A stretch of 39,608 bases of DNA from Acidimicrobiia bacterium. GTDB taxonomy: Bacteria; Actinomycetota; Acidimicrobiia; Spongiisociales; JAENVV01. Positions 1 through 9,073 of this stretch are shown here, piece after piece (positions within the stretch are counted from its first letter, which is position 1; every line of letters begins with the position of its first letter). The position numbers and the translations under genes are program-made. The DNA is taken from positions 1 through 39,608 of the forward strand of contig JAENVV010000096.1 in assembly GCA_016650365.1 (NCBI GenBank). Reading direction: 5' to 3'. The notes beneath the pieces are model-generated. The model saw nothing but the letters and a program-made list of their open reading frames with translations. It searched no databases and was not told where the DNA came from.

Positions 1-674
1 AGTTCTTCCTGCTTGGCAATGGAGCCGGTCACCGTGGCGTCGGCGGTACCCAAACCGCTGATCGCAGCCGTGATCAGCGAGTCGGCCCTGGCGACGGCGT
101 CGGTCTGACTGACCTGGATGGACTTCAGGTAATCGAGAACTACTTCGAGCTGGGCATCGTTCATCGGCCCATTACCGGCCAGACCCCAGGCCGGCATCGG
201 GCTACCCGCCCGACCGTACGTGAGCCAGAACTTCACCTCGTCGCGGTCATACCGATAAAAGATGTCATTCAGCGATGGGGCCGCCCAACTGACGGTAACC
301 CCGGACCGGGCGTCCACATAGGTCGCGACCCCACCAACGAGACCCTCGCCATGGCAGCCGGCACACTTAAACTCAGTCACGTGAAGACTGCCGCGGTGAA
401 CGGCGACGTCATCAAATTCAACCACAAACGACTCCTGCCGGTTGCGTTCGCCGAGGTAATACACCGGCAACGAAACCGCCAGAAAGGCAGAGAGAATGAC
501 CGCTACTCCGAGGACGCGATCGAGGCGACGGTTCTCAAGCTCGTCATCAGTCTTGTAAAGCGACAAGTTGGGAGCCACGGCATCCTGGCTTCGACCCCGT
601 AACCCGTTGGCTACGAGGAACGCCAGCCACCCGATCGCAACAAGCGCGGCAACAACAATGACCATCCCGCTCAT
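1..674 (-). CDS. Membrane-anchored monoheme cytochrome c of the bc complex (3' end beyond window)
   Basis: Partial gene: 224 codons are visible and the C-terminus lies beyond position 1. The product has two hydrophobic segments (about residues 3-22 and 54-73). A class I cytochrome c domain follows, with heme motif CAGCH at residues 104-108 and a likely axial methionine at M160 in SPMPAWG. It should receive electrons from the Rieske protein and pass them to the next carrier on the outer face of the membrane. The start ATG at 674 overlaps the Rieske stop as ATGA, so translation is probably coupled, and it is the last visible gene of a six-gene operon. It replaces the diheme QcrC usual in Actinobacteria. 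It lacks the N-terminal docking module shared by subunit IV and the plus-strand cytochromes. The heme motif is seen directly; the role is inferred from the operon. Confidence 0.88.
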   Translation of the reverse strand, partial: MSGMVIVVAALVAIGWLAFLVANGLRGRSQDAVAPNLSLYKTDDELENRRLDRVLGVAVILSAFLAVSLPVYYLGERNRQESFVVEFDDVAVHRGSLHVTEFKCAGCHGEGLVGGVATYVDARSGVTVSWAAPSLNDIFYRYDRDEVKFWLTYGRAGSPMPAWGLAGNGPMNDAQLEVVLDYLKSIQVSQTDAVARADSLITAAISGLGTADATVTGSIAKQEE

Positions 675-1537
675 TCGGCAGCCGCCGCTGTGCAGAAAAC
701 ACCCTGTGGGTATTTGACACTCTTGACCGGAGCCCGTTCCGTCGGAATGACCGAACCAGTTTTGATGATGAACTCACCTTTGGAGTCAATCTCCACGACG
801 AACCGGTCGAGATTACGGGGGGCAGGGCCTGCTTCGTACTCGCCGATCTGATTGTATTTCGAACCGTGGCAGGGACATTCGAAGCCCTGCGAGCTCTGGC
901 ACCATGGCACCGCACAACCGAGGTGGACGCACTTCTGCCAGAGGGCGCTCAACCCGTCGGCGACGGTTAGGTCTTCGGCGAATTGAGAATTGGGAAGAAC
1001 GGAGTCTGAAACCGGCACGATCCACGCCTTGGCGGCCGGCAGATAAAATGGAGTGATGGTGCCATCTGGTTGGGCAATGGCATCCTTGATGGCTTGAACT
1101 GGTCCGGCACTCACATCCGATCCGAATCCGCCACTCACCTTCGGCCAGCTAAACGCCAGCGAGGCAACGCCGAACGTACCGAGGGTCCCGAAGAACGAGG
1201 CGGCCAGTGCCCGGTTGAAGAATTGGCGACGGTTGACACCCTGCTCGGAAGCCGATAGCTCCACCACCGGATGGACCTTCTCGATGGGTTCCTCAGCGAC
1301 CGCCACCGCCACCGCCACCGAAGCCACCGGGGATTCGACGGTCGGTTCGGATACTTCAGCCACCTTGGACCGTGTAAACATGGACGGAATCCGGCTCCGG
1401 TCTGCCTTGCGGGCATCCTTATCCAACTGTTCTTCCCATGAGTTCGGCCCCCGCCGATAAGCGATGACAAAGGTCGCCAAACCGCCAAGGACGAACAGGA
1501 TCGAGCCCAATATGGTGAGAATCTGGGGCGCGGTCAT
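671..1537 (-). CDS. Rieske 2Fe-2S protein of a b6f/bc-type quinol oxidase
   Basis: High-potential 2Fe-2S subunit that takes electrons from quinol at the Qo site and hands them to cytochrome c. Both cluster loops are intact near the C-terminus: CVHLGC and CPCHGS, giving two Cys and two His ligands. The 288-residue protein begins with one TM helix (about residues 5-27). A low-complexity Ala/Val/Glu linker follows, then a twin-arginine-like RRQFFNRAL before a second hydrophobic helix. This suggests Tat export of the Rieske head with the helix kept as an anchor. The linker includes a VAVAVA run encoded by a short CCACCG tandem repeat near 1299-1320. I place the start at the ATG at 1537, which overlaps the subunit IV stop by one base; a longer upstream reading would run into that gene. 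The family call is firm. Confidence 0.94.
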   Translation of the reverse strand: MTAPQILTILGSILFVLGGLATFVIAYRRGPNSWEEQLDKDARKADRSRIPSMFTRSKVAEVSEPTVESPVASVAVAVAVAEEPIEKVHPVVELSASEQGVNRRQFFNRALAASFFGTLGTFGVASLAFSWPKVSGGFGSDVSAGPVQAIKDAIAQPDGTITPFYLPAAKAWIVPVSDSVLPNSQFAEDLTVADGLSALWQKCVHLGCAVPWCQSSQGFECPCHGSKYNQIGEYEAGPAPRNLDRFVVEIDSKGEFIIKTGSVIPTERAPVKSVKYPQGVFCTAAAAE

Positions 1538-2682
1538 CAGAAGTTCACCCAGTCTTTCAAGTCGTCGAAGAATATGCCATCCGCCCATGGGTAGGTGAAG
1601 TTGAACCCAGGCCCCCGGAACAAGACTCCGAAGATGGTGAGCGTGGCGGCACCCATCATGAAGAACGTGTACATGAAGATCGCGAACTTACGGTCAGATG
1701 GTTTGGTTGAAGGGTTCCGGTCAACGTAGGGGATCGCCATGAACCCGACGAGGCCGATGATGGTCGGAACCGTTACGCCCGCGATCTGCGGATCGAAATA
1801 CGACAACAATTCCTGGAGACCGAGGAAGTACCACGGTGCCTTCGACGGGTTCGGGGTCGCATTGAAGTTGGCAGACTCGAGCAGTGGTGCCTGCAGAATC
1901 ACCGACAACACAATGAGGACCGCGGTCACCGCCAGGAGTGCCGCAAACTCCATGATCATGAGATGCGGCCACGTGCTGACCTTATCGGTCGGCTCTGATT
2001 TGACCTGTTGAATAGCGTTCGCCTTGACGACCGTGAGCAGTCGCTGGGTCCGAACTCCCTCCGGCACGGCCTCCGGTTGAGCGAGCGGGCGAGCCGCAAC
2101 CGCGGTGGCTCCTCCAGAACGACCCACCGCCGGAGGTTCGGCGGCAACACTGGCTGCTGCGGCCGGCTCGGCGACCGGAATCTCGACAACTTCGGCGACC
2201 GACTCGGTGATCTCCGCAACCGGTGCGGACTCATCGGCGGGCGGAACTGAGGCCGCCGTCGACGCAGCCGGGGCTTCTTCGCCCAACATTTCGGCCAGAA
2301 CGCTGGCAGCCGAAACACCACTTGCCTTGGCTTTCGCCTCGACGGAGCGTTTAAGCAGCGACGCCGGCATCCCGGCTTTGGCGGCCGCCGCGTCATAGTC
2401 AATTTCTCCAGCTGCACCGGCATCAGGCGACGAGGCGGCTACTACCTGCGCCTGGGGCGCCGGCTCCTGGGACGGAGTCTCCGGCTCGGCGACTGGCCCC
2501 GCGGCTGGGGTAGCCGGTTCGGCGGCCGCCACCGTTTCGACCTTTGGCTGTTCGCCAATGTCCATGGGCGTTGGAGGGGCTTCCCCCGTCATTTCAGCGA
2601 GAATCTCTTCGACCGGAACGCCGAGTGCTTTGGCTTTGGCTTCGGCCGATCGCCGGAGCAAATGTTCTGGAATGTCAGACAC
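1537..2682 (-). CDS. Cytochrome b subunit IV (PetD-like) with duplicated N-terminal docking-like module
   Basis: C-terminal half of a split cytochrome b, carrying the Qo-site loop. The last ~150 residues hold three TM helices and the sequence KAPWYFLGLQEL (281-292). This is the place of the PEWY motif, but the glutamate is replaced, giving APWY. The first ~230 residues are not part of any subunit IV I know. They hold two copies of a ~30-residue helical module (residues 5-34 and 105-135, pattern P-x2-L-L-x-R-S-x-E-A-K-A-K-A-x-G-V ... L-A-E-M) joined by Ala/Pro/Glu-rich linkers. Related modules start the two cytochromes at 6232 and 7023. The start is GTG at 2682, set by AAGGAG six bases upstream; a nearby ATG at 2686 is out of frame. 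The gene lies 10 bases after the b6 gene. Confidence 0.92.
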   Translation of the reverse strand: MSDIPEHLLRRSAEAKAKALGVPVEEILAEMTGEAPPTPMDIGEQPKVETVAAAEPATPAAGPVAEPETPSQEPAPQAQVVAASSPDAGAAGEIDYDAAAAKAGMPASLLKRSVEAKAKASGVSAASVLAEMLGEEAPAASTAASVPPADESAPVAEITESVAEVVEIPVAEPAAAASVAAEPPAVGRSGGATAVAARPLAQPEAVPEGVRTQRLLTVVKANAIQQVKSEPTDKVSTWPHLMIMEFAALLAVTAVLIVLSVILQAPLLESANFNATPNPSKAPWYFLGLQELLSYFDPQIAGVTVPTIIGLVGFMAIPYVDRNPSTKPSDRKFAIFMYTFFMMGAATLTIFGVLFRGPGFNFTYPWADGIFFDDLKDWVNF

Positions 2683-2692
2683 TCATCACTCC

Positions 2693-3466
2693 TTACAACG
2701 GACCGGAAATTCCGCCATCTTTGCGGACCCGCCAGAAATGCACGGCCATGAAGATGACAATAATGAATGGGAAAAAGAGAACATGGAGCACGTACCATCG
2801 CAGGATGGTGTCAGCGGTTACCTCTACGGAACCCAGCAGGAGGAATTTGACCTGGCCGCCGAACACGGGCACGAATCCAGCCATGTTGGTACCGACCGTG
2901 ACAGCCCAAAGTGCCAACTGGTCCCACGGCAACAGATACCCGGTGAAGGACAACAGCAGGGTCAGAAGCAAGAGGATTACCCCGACTACCCAGTTGAATT
3001 CGCGAGGCGGTTTGTATGCACCGTGATAGAACACCCGGCTCATGTGCAAGAACACCGAAAGCACCATGAAGTGAGCACCCCACCGGTGCATGTTCCTGAC
3101 CAGCGAACCAAACGCCACCGACGTAGACAAAGCGGCGACATCCGAGTAGGCCGCCTCTGCGGTTGGGGCGTAATAGAACATCAGGAAGATGCCGGTAATG
3201 GTCAACAGGATGAACAGGAAGAAGCTGATCCCACCCAGGCACAGCGTGTAAGAGAGTCGCACCCCGTGGCGCTTCACCTTTACCGGGTGGAGGTGGTAGA
3301 GAACGTTGTTCATGATCACGTAAGAGCGGTTACGTGGCGTGTCCGAGTAGCCCTTCTTAAACGGTGAACCGGGCCGCAGAATCGACTCTGCCACCTGACT
3401 TCCGTGGACCTTCTCCCAGATGGAGGTGGCTTGCTCTTTGACTTTTTCGATGATTCCGTTTGCCAT
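2693..3466 (-). CDS. b6-type cytochrome b (PetB-like) with heme c_i cysteine
   Basis: Four-helix, diheme N-terminal half of a split cytochrome b, 257 residues. Heme ligands are complete: H127 and H141 on helix B (14 apart) and H228 and H243 on helix D (15 apart, the b6f-type spacing). C76, in TLCLGGIS, lines up with the cysteine that covalently holds heme c_i/c_n in cytochrome b6 and in Firmicutes homologues, so a third heme next to the Qi site is expected. PREFNWVVG also follows the b6 pattern. The protein works with subunit IV to move electrons across the membrane from quinol. This differs from the unsplit QcrB of typical Actinobacteria. The gene starts at ATG 3466, six bases after the ferredoxin stop. 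The c_i attachment is inferred from the conserved cysteine, by recall of the family. Confidence 0.94.
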
Positions 3467-3472
3467 CAGTTC

Positions 3473-3922
3473 CTACATCCGTAGTCCGTAGACGTAACCG
3501 TTCTTGTAATCGCGCTGCCCGGTATCGATGTCCCAGGGAGCCAGTCCTGCTGTCTCGACTTCGGCAGATAGAGAGCCTTCGAACTTCCCAAGCGTGATGA
3601 CGCCAGTCGGACACCGATCAACACAGAGCGCACAACGGGTGCACTCGTTCTCGTCGACCAGGAAAAACCCCTTGGCGCCTTCGCTCTCTCTGGGGTGGGC
3701 AACGTTGCTCCCTTCCTGGATGGCATCAAGCGACAAGTAGTGGATACATTTCCATGGGCAAATATCCACACATCCTTCACACAGGATGCACTCTGACTGG
3801 TCGATGTGGAGAAACTGCTTTGGCTTGACCTGGCCCAACAAGTAGGCGCCATCGACCACGGCCAACTGATAGTCGTCGCGGATCGGCGGAACCTCCACCC
3901 ATACGTCGCGAGCCGTTGCCAT
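3473..3922 (-). CDS. 2x[4Fe-4S] ferredoxin-type subunit in the bc operon
   Basis: A 149-residue soluble iron-sulfur protein with two ferredoxin motifs: CILCEGCVDIC followed by PWKC, and CTRCALCVDRC followed by PTG. Each supplies four cysteines for one [4Fe-4S] cluster. The N- and C-terminal extensions (about 40 residues each) have no motif I recognise. There is no signal peptide and no TM helix, so it should sit on the cytoplasmic face. The ATG follows the upstream stop codon with no gap, and the gene lies between the unknown membrane protein and cytochrome b6. That placement suggests a dedicated subunit or electron partner of the quinol complex, for instance passing electrons into or out of the Qi-side heme c_i. 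A ferredoxin gene inside a bc operon is unusual. The cluster count is clear; the partner is inferred. Confidence 0.9.
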   Translation of the reverse strand: MATARDVWVEVPPIRDDYQLAVVDGAYLLGQVKPKQFLHIDQSECILCEGCVDICPWKCIHYLSLDAIQEGSNVAHPRESEGAKGFFLVDENECTRCALCVDRCPTGVITLGKFEGSLSAEVETAGLAPWDIDTGQRDYKNGYVYGLRM

Positions 3923-4525
3923 CTACTTGATCGCCTTCGAAAGCGGACGCCCATATGGAGAGGAGACCTCAGCCTTCGGGCTGGGAGCGCCGAGGCCAAA
4001 TCCCTGGATCTTGGAGGCAAGCAAAATACCCAACCCAAGCACAACCGCATGATATCCACCGGACACGGCGTCCTTGAGGACGGCAAAGGAAATCTCGACG
4101 TCGTTGTTGAGAACGAGCCATTTGGGGACGGTTAGGAACACCTTCTGCGTGGTCCAACCGAGCGGACCCTGGGTGAGGTTCAGCCACTCAGAGGGAATAA
4201 TGCCGTAAAAGAGGACGAGTTCGTACCACGTGAGAAACGTGGCAAACCCCGCTCTGGCCCAGGTCATCGGTTTGCCGGTCACCCACACAAGGAAGGCACC
4301 GGCAATGATGAATTGCGAACCGGCCGCCGCGGTGATCTGACCGAACGTAACCGGTAACCAGCGCGGCATGTCGAGGAAGCTGTCTCTCAGGAATTCGGGC
4401 GAGACCAGTAGCTCGTTGCCGAACACAACCGCTATGGATAGACCAGCCACCGCGGCAAACAAACCAAACACCATCGCGGCGCTGCCAATCCGAGTGCGTT
4501 TCTTTTGGTCGTATACCCAGTTCAT
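3923..4525 (-). CDS. Unknown four-helix membrane protein heading the bc operon
   Basis: A 200-residue integral membrane protein that I do not recognise as a named family. It has about four hydrophobic segments (roughly residues 12-33, 56-78, 87-107 and 138-160). Polar loops contain MPRWLPVTFGQ and YGIIPSEWLNL. It has few histidines and no c-type heme motif, so it is more likely an anchor or assembly subunit than a redox protein. The ATG at 4525 (MNWVYDQKK) is preferred over upstream codons because it starts just before the first positively charged flank and helix, and GAGGA lies upstream. It is the first gene of the operon; its stop is directly followed by the ferredoxin ATG. A role as membrane anchor for the ferredoxin is my inference from that junction. 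Confidence 0.72.
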   Translation of the reverse strand: MNWVYDQKKRTRIGSAAMVFGLFAAVAGLSIAVVFGNELLVSPEFLRDSFLDMPRWLPVTFGQITAAAGSQFIIAGAFLVWVTGKPMTWARAGFATFLTWYELVLFYGIIPSEWLNLTQGPLGWTTQKVFLTVPKWLVLNNDVEISFAVLKDAVSGGYHAVVLGLGILLASKIQGFGLGAPSPKAEVSSPYGRPLSKAIK

Positions 4526-4552
4526 AGGCTTTTGGTCTGTTCCTCTTCGGAC

Positions 4553-4582
4553 CCGATAGCAAGTGACGGCGAGCGAGTCCAA
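4553..4582 (-). promoter_or_regulatory. Possible promoter of the bc operon
   Basis: On the minus strand, TTGGAC (4582-4577) is followed after 17-18 bases by TGCTATCGG, which has an extended -10 look (TGnTAT). It lies about 30 bases upstream of the ATG at 4525. The match is modest; it was chosen because it is the best pair in the 270-base divergent gap 4526-4795. Confidence 0.25.
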
Positions 4583-4680
4583 GCTGCGTAACTGCCATCG
4601 CAGTTCTAGCACATCGAGGTCCCGTTGCTCAATCCACAATACGCCACGAACAGGCGATCACATAACCTTTCCCGTCCACT

Positions 4681-4795: not shown

Positions 4796-6235
4796 TTGAC
4801 CATCACCGCAGAAGAGAACCGCTCAGCAGCGGGAATCATTCGGGGAGCCGATTCGGCCGGCCGGGTGGCACTCCTTCTGGCCGGGATCTTTCTTCTCCTC
4901 GCCGGCGGCCTTCAGGTTCTTGCGACGCTGAAGCTGGCCTATCCGGACTTCTTGTCAAACACATCCTTTCTGTCGTACGGTCGCCTCCAGCCGATGGCCG
5001 ATACCACCGCTCTTCTTGGTTGGCTGACGTTCTCGAACCTGGCCATCATCTACTACCTCCTGCCCCGATTGACCGGTGCCCGGCTCTGGAACGAGCCGGT
5101 GGCGGTGTTGGCGACGTTCGCCAGCGCAGCGGTAACAGTCCTGGCGGTAGTAGGGATCGGTCTCGGGTACACCGACGGGCGCCCACTCGCCGATGTTCAC
5201 TTCATCGCCGATGCGGTGTTGCTCGCCACCTATCTCGTACCGCTGGCCGTGACGGCCCAAACCATCCGTCATCGAACCGAGACCTCAACGTACGTCAGCC
5301 TCTATTACGTGCTGGCAGGCCTGGTCTGGCTGATCGGAGCGACCATCGTCGGCAATATCCCCGGGGAAGCCGTGGTCGGTGGCCTGATCCAGAATGAGTT
5401 CTACACCTCGACCATCTACGCGATGTGGGCGGTAGGAATTGGCATCGGTGGCGCCTATTACATCGTTCCGAAGACGACCGGAAACCCGCTGTACAGTCGT
5501 TCGCTGGCCATGGTCGGCTTTTGGTCACTCGTCATCACCTCTCTCTGGGCCGGTTTGGCCAGCCAGATATACGGCCCGGTCGGTGACTGGGCCGAAAGCA
5601 TCGGGGCAGTTTTCGCCCTCGGAATGATCATCCCGGCCGTGGCAGTACTGGCCAATCTGGTCGGGACCATGAGCGGGAAGTGGGACATGCTCCGCACCCA
5701 CGCCGATGTCCAATTCGCCATCGTGGGCAGCCTGGCAGCCGTATTCGTGGCGCTCGTGGCCGGAACGCAAGGATTCCGCAGCGTGTCAGCAGTGGTGGGC
5801 CTGACGACGTTTGTTTCAGGAACCCAGTTGGCTTCGGTGTGGGGGGTCGGAACGCTGTTCGCCTGCGCGTTTGGGTACCACGCCATTCCACGGACCGCAG
5901 GACGTCGCATATTCTCGCCATCACTCGCCAGAACCCAGCTGCGACTGCTGTTGACCGGGGTCCTATTGGCTTCCGGAGCGTTATGGGCCGCAGGCCTTGC
6001 GTCTGGCTACACGTGGGTCTCAGCGGCCTATTCAGGTACCTCAGCCATCGCCGGTGACGGCTTCTCGGCTACGGCTGACGCGGTGGGCGGTCTCTATTCA
6101 CTCGGACTCCTGGGAATGCTCGTGATCGCGGCCGCCGCCCTGTTGTACGTCTACAACGTCTGGCGCACGTTCACATCGGGCCAGACCACGACAAGGGAAT
6201 TGCTTGTGTTCGCCGACGAGGAGGTGGCGTCGTGA
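4796..6235 (+). CDS. CcoN-like (cbb3 oxidase subunit I family) protein lacking all heme and CuB histidines
   Basis: A 479-residue membrane protein with about twelve helices. Family landmarks of CcoN are clear: PDFLSNTSFLSYGRLQP (50-66), YYIVPKTTGNPLYS (221-234), FWSLVITSLWAG (242-253) and SGKWDMLRT (293-301). Yet the whole protein has only four histidines (H135, H159, H302, H362). Aligning to remembered CcoN motifs puts A68 at the low-spin heme ligand; S205, A255 and S256 at the three CuB ligands; and T343 and L345 in place of the GHVH heme ligands. It cannot bind the usual hemes and copper, so it should not reduce oxygen and is better read as a scaffold. The start is TTG at 4796, supported by AAGGAG (4783-4788) seven bases upstream. 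It overlaps the next gene by four bases. No true catalytic oxidase subunit is in the window. Confidence 0.85.
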   Translation: MTITAEENRSAAGIIRGADSAGRVALLLAGIFLLLAGGLQVLATLKLAYPDFLSNTSFLSYGRLQPMADTTALLGWLTFSNLAIIYYLLPRLTGARLWNEPVAVLATFASAAVTVLAVVGIGLGYTDGRPLADVHFIADAVLLATYLVPLAVTAQTIRHRTETSTYVSLYYVLAGLVWLIGATIVGNIPGEAVVGGLIQNEFYTSTIYAMWAVGIGIGGAYYIVPKTTGNPLYSRSLAMVGFWSLVITSLWAGLASQIYGPVGDWAESIGAVFALGMIIPAVAVLANLVGTMSGKWDMLRTHADVQFAIVGSLAAVFVALVAGTQGFRSVSAVVGLTTFVSGTQLASVWGVGTLFACAFGYHAIPRTAGRRIFSPSLARTQLRLLLTGVLLASGALWAAGLASGYTWVSAAYSGTSAIAGDGFSATADAVGGLYSLGLLGMLVIAAAALLYVYNVWRTFTSGQTTTRELLVFADEEVAS

Positions 6236-7026
6236 GCGATGCAGCGTCCATCGCGGCGGCCACCGGAGTTCCCGAATCACTGGTGATGAGGTCGGCCCAG
6301 GCACGGGCGACGGCCACCGGGACCAGCGTCGAAGCCGTGCTCGGCGCCTGGGGTGGAGGCGAAGCGATCACTCCCACGGCAGCAGCCGCCCCGACGGCAC
6401 CGGCTCCTGAGCCCCCGTTGGCAGAGACCCCACCATCGACAATCGTCCCCACCGAAGTGGCAGCCAGCGTGGCACCGCCGGAGACCGTTGCTCCAGCCCC
6501 GGTCCTGGTGGCGGCTCGCCCCGATCCCGATGCAGCTCCCCTGCTCGTAGGACGTACCGATCACCCCATCATGGCACTGGCCGTCCTGGTGATCATCTTC
6601 ACTGTGAGTGCCCTGCTGGCAGTCGGAGTGCCGGCGCTTGATGCTCGCAATGCGGCCGCCGATCAAATACCAGGAACGACTCCCATACTTTCGAGTCAAG
6701 CACTGGCCGGTCGAACGGTCTACCTGCAGGAGGGCTGCATGTACTGCCACACCCAGCAGGTCCGCTCGGTCGTCACCGATGTCGGTCTCGGCCCGGTTTC
6801 TGAACCAGGGACAAGTCCGGCCGTCGGTCCCCCCACCCTCGGCTTCGTCCGGATCGGGCCCGACCTAACCCACGTCGAGACCCGCTACGAGGACGATGAG
6901 GCCAAGTTGCGAACCGTCCTGGTCGACCCGAAGAGTCTCAATCCCGACTCGTTGATGCCTAGCTTCGCGCATCTGTCACCAGATGATCTGAACGCGTTGC
7001 TCACATACCTTAAGGAATCCGAATGA
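6232..7026 (+). CDS. CcoO-like monoheme cytochrome c with N-terminal docking-like module
   Basis: Membrane-bound cytochrome c of the CcoO/FixO family, 264 residues. Order: a helical module (residues 13-44, PESLVMRSAQARATATG then VEAVLGAW), an Ala/Pro/Thr linker (45-105), one TM helix (111-133), and a periplasmic heme domain. That domain has GCMYCHTQQVRS (CMYCH at 169-173) and a likely methionine ligand M242 in LMPSF. The phrases RIGPDL, RYEDDE and LVDPKSLNPDSLMPSF follow CcoO closely. It should accept electrons from another cytochrome and pass them within the complex. The start GTG at 6232 overlaps the CcoN-like stop as GTGA. The N-terminal module is absent from standard CcoO and matches those of subunit IV and the next gene. 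Confidence 0.9.
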   Translation: MSDAASIAAATGVPESLVMRSAQARATATGTSVEAVLGAWGGGEAITPTAAAAPTAPAPEPPLAETPPSTIVPTEVAASVAPPETVAPAPVLVAARPDPDAAPLLVGRTDHPIMALAVLVIIFTVSALLAVGVPALDARNAAADQIPGTTPILSSQALAGRTVYLQEGCMYCHTQQVRSVVTDVGLGPVSEPGTSPAVGPPTLGFVRIGPDLTHVETRYEDDEAKLRTVLVDPKSLNPDSLMPSFAHLSPDDLNALLTYLKESE

Positions 7027-8018
7027 GCGACCTAGCTGCGGCAGCCGCCAACATCGGCGGGCCAGAAGATCTCGTTATGCGCTCCGCCAAGGCACGAGCC
7101 GAAGCCACCGGAACCACGGTGGATGCCGTGCTGGCGGCCTGGGCTGGCGGCGGGGCCACCCCGGCAACCACAGCAGCCACTCCTGAACCTGGTTCCGCCC
7201 CTGAAGCGGCCGGGTCCGTCGTGGAAACGGCCACCCCGGAACCGGCCCCCCAAGCGGCGCCGGCGGCATCTGCGCCGATACCCGCGCCGGATGACGCACC
7301 AACTCGCATGGTGGCGGCGGCCCCGATCCCCGAGACCGTCACGATCGAAGAGTCATACGAATGGGATCAAGTCACGACCGTTCGAACCGCCGGGATCAAA
7401 GAACGCACCAGATCCGTCATACCGATATGGATGCTTGGCCTCTTCACAATCCTACCGTTGTTCGCTGTCGGATACATTACGGTCAACTCGGCCGGACCCG
7501 ATTGCGGTAAAGCCGGGCAACTTGCCATCGATTTTCGCAACGAGCTCGTCAATTGCGACCTGTCTGCCTATAAGGGGGTCGGAGGCGGTGGCGGCGGCCA
7601 GACCGACTTCATCGCCAATGGCAGTGCGACATACGTAACGTGCGCCGCCTGCCACGGAGCCAACGGACAAGGTGGGGCCGGACCAGCTCTTAGTGGTGGA
7701 TCCGTCTTGACCACGTTCTCGTCTTGTTCGGATCATGTGACCTGGGTCACACTCGGATCAGCCGGGTGGCAAGCCCAGTTCGGAAATACCTACGGTGACA
7801 TCAGTAAGCCGGTGGCTGGCGGCATGCAAGCCTGGGGGGAGTCGCTTTCCGAAGAAGAGATTCGTTCGGTGGTGCTGTACGAGCGGGTGGCATTCGGAGG
7901 CGAGCCCCTCGATACCGCCATCGCGGATTGCGGTCTGGCAGCAGCTCCGGCGGATGGCACAACCACCACGGACTCGACGGTTCCAACCGGCGAAACGCCA
8001 ACCACCACGGCCCCTTAG
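7023..8018 (+). CDS. CcoP-like membrane monoheme cytochrome c with N-terminal docking-like module
   Basis: A 331-residue cytochrome c in the place of CcoP but with one heme, not two. The N-terminal module (residues 14-44, PEDLVMRSAKARAEATG then VDAVLAAW) is nearly the same as in the preceding gene. An Ala/Pro linker, a TM helix (about 131-154), a Gly-rich stretch, and a heme domain with CAACHGANGQGGAGP (CAACH 207-211) and a likely M268 follow. Two further cysteine pairs may form disulfides (C161/C178 and C235/C303). The C-terminus is a Thr/Pro tail. The ATG at 7023 overlaps the previous stop as ATGA, and a strong hairpin follows the stop, so this is the last gene of the operon. It could be the exit cytochrome of the complex; the electron acceptor is unknown. 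Confidence 0.87.
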   Translation: MSDLAAAAANIGGPEDLVMRSAKARAEATGTTVDAVLAAWAGGGATPATTAATPEPGSAPEAAGSVVETATPEPAPQAAPAASAPIPAPDDAPTRMVAAAPIPETVTIEESYEWDQVTTVRTAGIKERTRSVIPIWMLGLFTILPLFAVGYITVNSAGPDCGKAGQLAIDFRNELVNCDLSAYKGVGGGGGGQTDFIANGSATYVTCAACHGANGQGGAGPALSGGSVLTTFSSCSDHVTWVTLGSAGWQAQFGNTYGDISKPVAGGMQAWGESLSEEEIRSVVLYERVAFGGEPLDTAIADCGLAAAPADGTTTTDSTVPTGETPTTTAP

Positions 8019-8227: not shown

Positions 8228-8266
8228 AACCCTGACCAGCTTGAGCCTTTTTTGGAGTTTTTCATA

Positions 8267-9073
8267 ATGACAACGTTCGTATCTTTCCTTTCTGACTTCG
8301 GATACGAGGATGAGTTCGTAGGAGTCGTCCATGGAGTCATCGCCAAGATGAGCCCGGAAACCCGGGTCATAGACGTGAATCATTCCGTCCATCCGGGATC
8401 CGTCCGCTCAGGCGCCCTGTCGCTCATGCGAGCCATTCAGTACCTGCCAGAAGGGGTGGCGTTGGGGGTCGTCGATCCAGGAGTTGGCACCGATCGACTC
8501 CCGATCGCTGTCGAGACGGACTGGGGATACTTTGTCGGACCCGACAATGGACTTCTGTCTCCAGCGGTGGCTCTCGTGGGCGGAGCCCGGGCCGCCTATA
8601 CGCTGGTGAATCCCGATTTTGTCATCCCGTCGGCCGGAGCCACCTTCGACGGCCGGGATCGGTTCGGACCGGCCGCAGCCGTGCTGGCATCCGGCGAGGC
8701 CCGCATTGAAGATCTTGGTGACGCCATCGATCCCGCCTCGCTCAAGCCCATGATCCTTCCGCTGCCGGAGGTAACTGATACCACCGTCAGTGGACACACC
8801 TGGTGGATCGATCGATTTGGGAATGTGCAAACGAATATTGGACCAGAAGACCTGGCAGAAATCGGGATCGGCTTCGGCGACACCATGACCATCAAAGTTG
8901 GACTCAACGAACGAGTGGTCCAATTGGTCGACACCTACGGCCGAGTCGAAGAGGGCACGTTGATGGCGGTGGTGGATTCGCAAGGTCTGGTGGCTCTATC
9001 CGTCCGCCAGGGACGCGCCTCGGACGAGCTCTCGATCGGGCTGGAGCGCCCGGTCACGTTCGCCAGGTCCTAA
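8267..9073 (+). CDS. S-adenosyl-L-methionine hydrolase (adenosine-forming), DUF62 family
   Basis: 268-residue cytoplasmic enzyme of the SAM hydroxide adenosyltransferase family, which splits SAM with water to adenosine and methionine. Family signatures are present in order: SFLSDFGYEDEFVGVVHG near the N-terminus, VVDPGVGTDR, YFVGPDNGLL, TFDGRDRFGPAAA and WWIDRFGNVQTNI. These line the SAM/adenosine pocket in the trimeric fold, by family knowledge. I chose ATG 8267, with GGAG at 8254-8257 ten bases upstream, over a TTG at 8252 that would overlap the ribosome-binding site. The gene stands alone downstream of the respiratory operon's terminator. It may adjust SAM levels or salvage adenosine. Confidence 0.9.
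   Translation: MTTFVSFLSDFGYEDEFVGVVHGVIAKMSPETRVIDVNHSVHPGSVRSGALSLMRAIQYLPEGVALGVVDPGVGTDRLPIAVETDWGYFVGPDNGLLSPAVALVGGARAAYTLVNPDFVIPSAGATFDGRDRFGPAAAVLASGEARIEDLGDAIDPASLKPMILPLPEVTDTTVSGHTWWIDRFGNVQTNIGPEDLAEIGIGFGDTMTIKVGLNERVVQLVDTYGRVEEGTLMAVVDSQGLVALSVRQGRASDELSIGLERPVTFARS

Follow-up and report, generated by a model that had tools for sequence, protein, structure and literature searches.

A CcoN-like gene from an Acidimicrobiia bacterium was found to encode a heme-copper oxidase subunit I homologue, here called N, in which all six heme and copper ligands and the catalytic tyrosine of helix VII have been lost. The gene lies on a stretch of 39,608 nucleotides (the window; contig JAENVV010000096.1), precedes genes for a CcoO-like (O) and a CcoP-like (P) cytochrome c and is divergent to a cytochrome bc operon (Table 1). 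Because the metal ligands are lost, the gene is maintained intact in many actinobacterial families and complex III genes adjoin it, N is most likely a membrane frame that passes electrons from one respiratory complex to another and does not itself reduce oxygen. Metal ligands are what normally define subunit I of the heme-copper oxidases. To our knowledge no subunit I without cofactors has been described, and neither a ligandless CcoN family nor a cofactor-free subunit I was found in the open-access literature searched.

Table 1. Positions of the features in the window, with remarks
Feature	Position	Strand	Remarks
CcoN-like protein (N), heme-copper oxidase subunit I homologue	4796..6235	+	Without the six heme/CuB ligands and helix VII Tyr
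CcoO/FixO-like mono-heme cytochrome c (O)	6232..7026	+	Heme motif CMYCH; Met ligand in MPSF; single TM helix predicted; three-helix module at the N-terminus
RSA module of the CcoO-like protein	6238..6378	+	AlphaFold2 pLDDT 83
CcoP-like cytochrome c (P)	7023..8018	+	Single heme motif, CAACH; GGM Met conserved; single TM helix predicted; three-helix module at the N-terminus
RSA module of the CcoP-like protein	7029..7169	+	
Uncharacterized membrane protein, first gene of the bc operon	3923..4639	-	About 3-4 TM; true start probably internal
Ferredoxin-like bc-operon subunit, 2x[4Fe-4S]	3473..3922	-	
Cytochrome b6-type N-terminal half of cytochrome b (b-N)	2693..3466	-	
C-terminal half of cytochrome b (b-C), subunit IV-like	1537..2682	-	Two N-terminal RSA modules (2563-2682, 2260-2400)
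Rieske iron-sulfur protein	671..1588	-	ORF extent; true start probably internal
Diheme cytochrome c	1..674	-	Truncated by contig start; first CAGCH present

The N gene is an intact frame encoding 479 aa, with the start codon TTG and the sequence GAAGGAG upstream; its end overlaps the start of the O gene by 4 nt and the O and P genes again overlap by 4 nt. N matched the TIGR00780 (ccoN) model with 163.8 bits (E 6.3e-48), far under the equivalog cut-off of 583 bits, and Pfam COX1 with 119.3 bits, and its only sequence matches in the PDB were cbb3 chains, the best being 9g6b_A (E 3.9e-33). N is a homologue of CcoN subunit I and preserves a good part of its helix framework (GRL.P, FW, YY..P). The original prediction, made from the letters of the window, had described a gene that was recognizably CcoN, with an intact frame and a good ribosome-binding site, coupled to two intact cytochrome genes, and all of these points held. 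The structural model that it had called for was less informative: AlphaFold2, run on an alignment of four sequences, returned a pLDDT of 36, and the CcoN fold of N is an inference supported by sequence homology alone, because this model is poor.

Ligand columns were mapped in three ways, by a phmmer alignment of N to five cbb3 chains (in which the region of S205 was gapped), by a MAFFT alignment with more than 70 homologue entries and by hhalign against five fully liganded actinobacterial relatives, which gave the same correspondences over 456 columns (probability 100%, E 6.5e-63). The columns of the low-spin heme histidine pair are occupied in N by A68 and L345, that of the heme b3 histidine by T343, and those of the three CuB histidines by S205, A255 and S256. 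At the column of the helix VII tyrosine N has S249, and W, A, G, S and other residues are found there across the family. N thus meets neither the cbb3 ligand set of two histidines for low-spin heme b, one for heme b3 and three for CuB, nor the requirement for the tyrosine. The same six columns gave a positive control, as five relatives (L106, L107, L108, L110 and L111) found with the same profile and aligned by the same method keep all six histidines, which counters chance or misalignment as the source of the result. None of 37 homologues of the class has a histidine at any of the six columns, the ligand and tyrosine positions are freely variable within the family, and no His, Met or Cys column that could supply a replacement ligand is conserved in half or more of its members.

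N contains only four histidines (135, 159, 302 and 362). The corresponding residues in real cbb3 oxidases are E/N, K, D and H/F, respectively, and within the family the four positions vary and are not conserved. The finding that would have refuted the original prediction, namely one of the four at a ligand position or shown by a homologue family to be a heme ligand, was therefore not made. Its count of four histidines in 479 residues and its assignment of the six ligand places held residue by residue, as did the loss of every heme and copper ligand, to which the loss of the tyrosine is now added. N is a CcoN homologue that fails the defining ligand test, and the name cbb3 oxidase should not be applied to it. 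Oxygen reductase activity is not expected without the ligands, an inference from sequence alone. Assignment of N as a nitric oxide reductase of the NorB family was considered and rejected, the ligand histidine columns shared with the hemes and FeB site of that family being empty.

Homologues of N were detected in 150 of the 395 genomes of the class (E<=1e-10), mostly as open frames and with identity down to about 22%. The search for ligandless members covered the Actinomycetota, in which further families (G418, G528, G414, G400 and G428) also contain them. Comparison with congeners gave dN/dS values of 0.127 and 0.118 for N, and values near 0 for the adjoining cytochrome b-N and ferredoxin genes. 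A dN/dS of 0.12-0.13 indicates purifying selection and that N is not a pseudogene, as had been predicted, and the trio of CcoN-, CcoO- and CcoP-like genes that the prediction proposed to seek in relatives was recovered in most of the family loci fetched. All 45 ligandless sequences formed one clade in an IQ-TREE phylogeny (UFboot 85), from which L112-L114 were left out; in the first FastTree tree, the ligandless clade had included the liganded L112, grouped there with a family of small genomes on long branches. The single clade and its support make one loss of the ligands likely, not firmly proven. The liganded CcoN relatives L106, L107, L108 and L110 are the nearest by profile outside the clade, and they differ from it in having the six ligands and a multiheme partner. 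At these loci (L106:2482-5828, L107:8883-12356, L108:3500-7129 and L110:6392-9740) liganded CcoN precedes a fusion of a CcoO domain with a pentaheme cytochrome c.

The divergent operon (1-4639, minus strand) encodes, reading away from N, the membrane protein, the 2x[4Fe-4S] protein, b-N, b-C, the Rieske protein and the diheme cytochrome c. With both parts of cytochrome b (PF00033 and PF00032) and a Rieske-like protein it qualifies as a bc complex operon. It does not qualify as an actinobacterial bcc operon, which has an unsplit QcrB and a QcrC with two adjacent c domains; here cytochrome b is split, and the diheme cytochrome c is of a type of ~495 aa with CXXCH motifs about 300 residues apart (the intact orthologue in L036 has 495 aa). 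The membrane protein had no Pfam match, is conserved at essentially every locus with the motif PSEWLNLTQGPL...IPxWLVLNNxVxIS, and is possibly a new bc-complex subunit.

This arrangement is conserved in the family. The membrane-protein, ferredoxin and b-N genes lay divergent to N and within about 0.2-5 kb of it in 39 of 40 fetched family loci. The lone exception was half of a gene that had been split in its assembly. Genes for b-C, Rieske and diheme c were also present in 37 of the 40. On the strand of N, CcoP was found in 38 and CcoO in 36 of these loci. At L184 (genome G012) a single strand carries N-coxB-coxA-coxC-ctaG-O-P beside the bc operon. In four relatives (G003, G002, G027 and G035) the same ferredoxin-bc operon is present but N and O are missing; a bc complex of the ferredoxin type can therefore do without N. 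Of the 40 loci, 28 had a gene for a SAM hydroxide adenosyltransferase (in the window 8252-9073, plus strand) no more than about 8 kb from N.

The CXXCH motif is retained in all 36 CcoO-like and in 37 of 38 CcoP-like domains, and several families have an N-O fusion. The canonical cbb3 set of a mono-heme CcoO and a diheme CcoP is not met, as O has one CXXCH and P has one instead of two. The axial ligand of the O heme is Met in the window and Met, His or Gln according to clade among L036-L075; such a switch should shift the redox potential of the heme, and because the ligand varies the redox role of O may differ between clades. The CcoO-like protein of G428 (L109:4054-4506) was without a CXXCH motif, and in L071 (genome G033) no CcoO gene was present between N and P, which may possibly reflect assembly collapse between near-identical module repeats.

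O, P and b-C (twice) carry at their N-termini a module of about 40 aa, PExLVxRSAxARA..G..V..VLA.W.GG, here termed the RSA module. AlphaFold2 modelled it as three helices (pLDDT 83), and a Foldseek search against solved folds gave nothing at E<=0.001. From its position before the TM helix of c-type cytochromes it is inferred to lie on the cytoplasmic side. The only carriers in the genome of the window were b-C, O, P and one membrane protein of the aa3 locus. Similar aa3-locus carriers appeared in seven other genomes (G046, G025, G057, G033, G081, G270 and G042); none was seen at the aa3 locus in G257, G001 and G022. Among genomes without N, the module was not found in G002, G027 and G035, and G003 gave one weak match; G006 and G012 do have N, but at their loci the module was missing or gave only a weak signal. 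In G025 and G057 (L207:16-1872 and L206:1222-3096) an RSA module was observed near the C-terminus of what we take to be, by reading the sequence, a 2-oxoacid:ferredoxin oxidoreductase alpha-like protein. This occurrence, in streamlined genomes of ~34% GC, hints at a tie between ferredoxin producers and the ferredoxin-bearing bc complex. Members of the order UBA5794 are reported to lack 2-oxoglutarate dehydrogenase and mostly to use KOR (PMC12008989); membership of the window in this order is only a guess.

Nine genomes of the class, four of them of about 1 Mb (G057, G033, G025 and G081) and the others G022, G270, G001, G006 and G012, have a single cytochrome b locus, which lies beside N, and their COX1 matches above the cut-off were one aa3-type oxidase and N. 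Cytochrome bd was absent from all 13 genomes checked. NrfD, a mark of alternative complex III, was found in only one of ten genomes tested, that of the window. This genome has one aa3 oxidase elsewhere, the subunit II of which carries a heme c domain, and the true oxidase that the original prediction suggested looking for is therefore present. It also has two additional bc operons (L079:752-5075 and L080:6130-10562), in both of which a GltD-like FAD/NAD(P) oxidoreductase and the 2x[4Fe-4S] domain form one fusion; the operon of L080 adjoins NarK-like transporters.

The trio resembles the cbb3 oxidase CcoNOP (PDB 3mk7/5djq, 9g6b and 6xkw) in its homologous N, O and P, their order, the CcoO-type heme c and a near-gapless alignment across the CcoN core. 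It differs in lacking the ligands of heme b, heme b3 and CuB and the catalytic tyrosine, in the single heme motif of P where canonical CcoP has two, and in its link to a bc operon. In the actinobacterial bcc-aa3 supercomplex the diheme QcrC, described in Corynebacterium glutamicum as an electron busbar (PMC8795186), provides a fixed c-heme wire from Rieske to CuA, and a wire of this kind is proposed here; the window differs in its split b6/IV-style cytochrome b, in an operon with a 2x[4Fe-4S] protein and a novel membrane protein, and in the extra hemes on CcoO/CcoP-like proteins together with a CcoN-like frame. An engineered bc1-cbb3 CIII2CIV supercomplex (PMC7876108) likewise pairs a bc complex with CcoNOP-type subunits, but there CcoNOP is catalytic, which the trio of the window cannot be.

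On balance these data favour, with moderate confidence and without biochemical or structural data, a reading in which N-O-P is a non-catalytic, CcoN-derived frame that holds two c-hemes and bridges the flow of electrons within a bc-aa3 assembly. N would keep the heme-copper-oxidase fold, bind neither heme b, heme b3 nor CuB, and hold the c-hemes of the membrane-anchored O and P in place. Menaquinol would be oxidized by the divergently encoded cytochrome b/Rieske complex, and electrons would pass from Rieske to the diheme c and/or the O-P hemes, then to the aa3 subunit II (CoxB, with its own heme c) and to aa3. This route would do the job of the diheme QcrC in other actinobacterial bcc-aa3 supercomplexes, and the RSA module on b-C, O, P and the aa3-locus membrane protein would probably dock the parts together. 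The sequences themselves establish the ligand loss, its conservation, the selection, the synteny, the distribution of the module and the single cytochrome b locus of several genomes; the CcoN fold, the physical assembly, the direction and path of the electrons and the docking role are all inferred. Several observations weigh against this reading: the bc operons of relatives that lack N, the two further bc operons in the genome of the window, the patchy occurrence of the RSA module at loci with N and at aa3 loci, and the varying axial ligand of O. The original prediction, a scaffold or platform for electron transfer that performs no oxygen chemistry, is supported and is strengthened by the conserved bc neighbourhood, its electron-transfer role remaining an inference; to it may be added that the platform is probably not free-standing and belongs with the bc operon.

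Other explanations were weighed. N might help to assemble or mature the bc complex or the aa3 oxidase, through c-heme insertion or the assembly of copper or subunits, without being a stoichiometric subunit. It has no cofactors of its own, some bc complexes of the same type lack it, and L184 encodes it in one run with coxBAC and the assembly gene ctaG; however, its tie to two c-type cytochromes, with translational coupling to O and fusion with O in several families, is the usual pattern of a structural subunit, and this role appears unlikely. Also unlikely is a trio that forms a separate cytochrome c reservoir or terminal transfer unit for some other partner, such as an extracellular acceptor or a nitrogen-oxide reductase. 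The two extra bc operons in the genome of the window and the varying axial ligands of O would allow this, but the synteny with bc genes is strict, the RSA module is common to O, P, b-C and the aa3-locus protein, and the trio is kept in ~1 Mb genomes with only this cytochrome b locus and aa3 as the only other COX1.

Binding of heme or another cofactor by non-canonical ligands, with some redox or gas chemistry, draws support from the largely kept CcoN helix framework; the absence of a conserved His, Met or Cys column and the free variation at the ligand and tyrosine positions speak against it and make it very improbable. A decaying pseudogene, or an artefact of sequencing or assembly, has nothing in its favour beyond the ligand loss itself and is practically ruled out by the intact frame, the low dN/dS and the spread of mostly open frames through the class.

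If the bridge reading is extended, it is possible that an actinobacterial lineage, probably including the streamlined marine Actinomarinales, respires via a ferredoxin-bc complex, a dead CcoNOP bridge and aa3 held by RSA docking, with the RSA module on 2-oxoacid:ferredoxin oxidoreductase coupling ferredoxin oxidation to this complex in the streamlined lineage; that the family of ~1 Mb and 34% GC is Actinomarinales is itself inferred. Should N prove structural in a complex III/IV assembly, a terminal oxidase would have been turned into an electron bridge. This would offer a testable case of a respiratory pseudoenzyme, and would show how actinobacteria without a QcrC-type subunit, probably including abundant marine plankton, link menaquinol to aa3.
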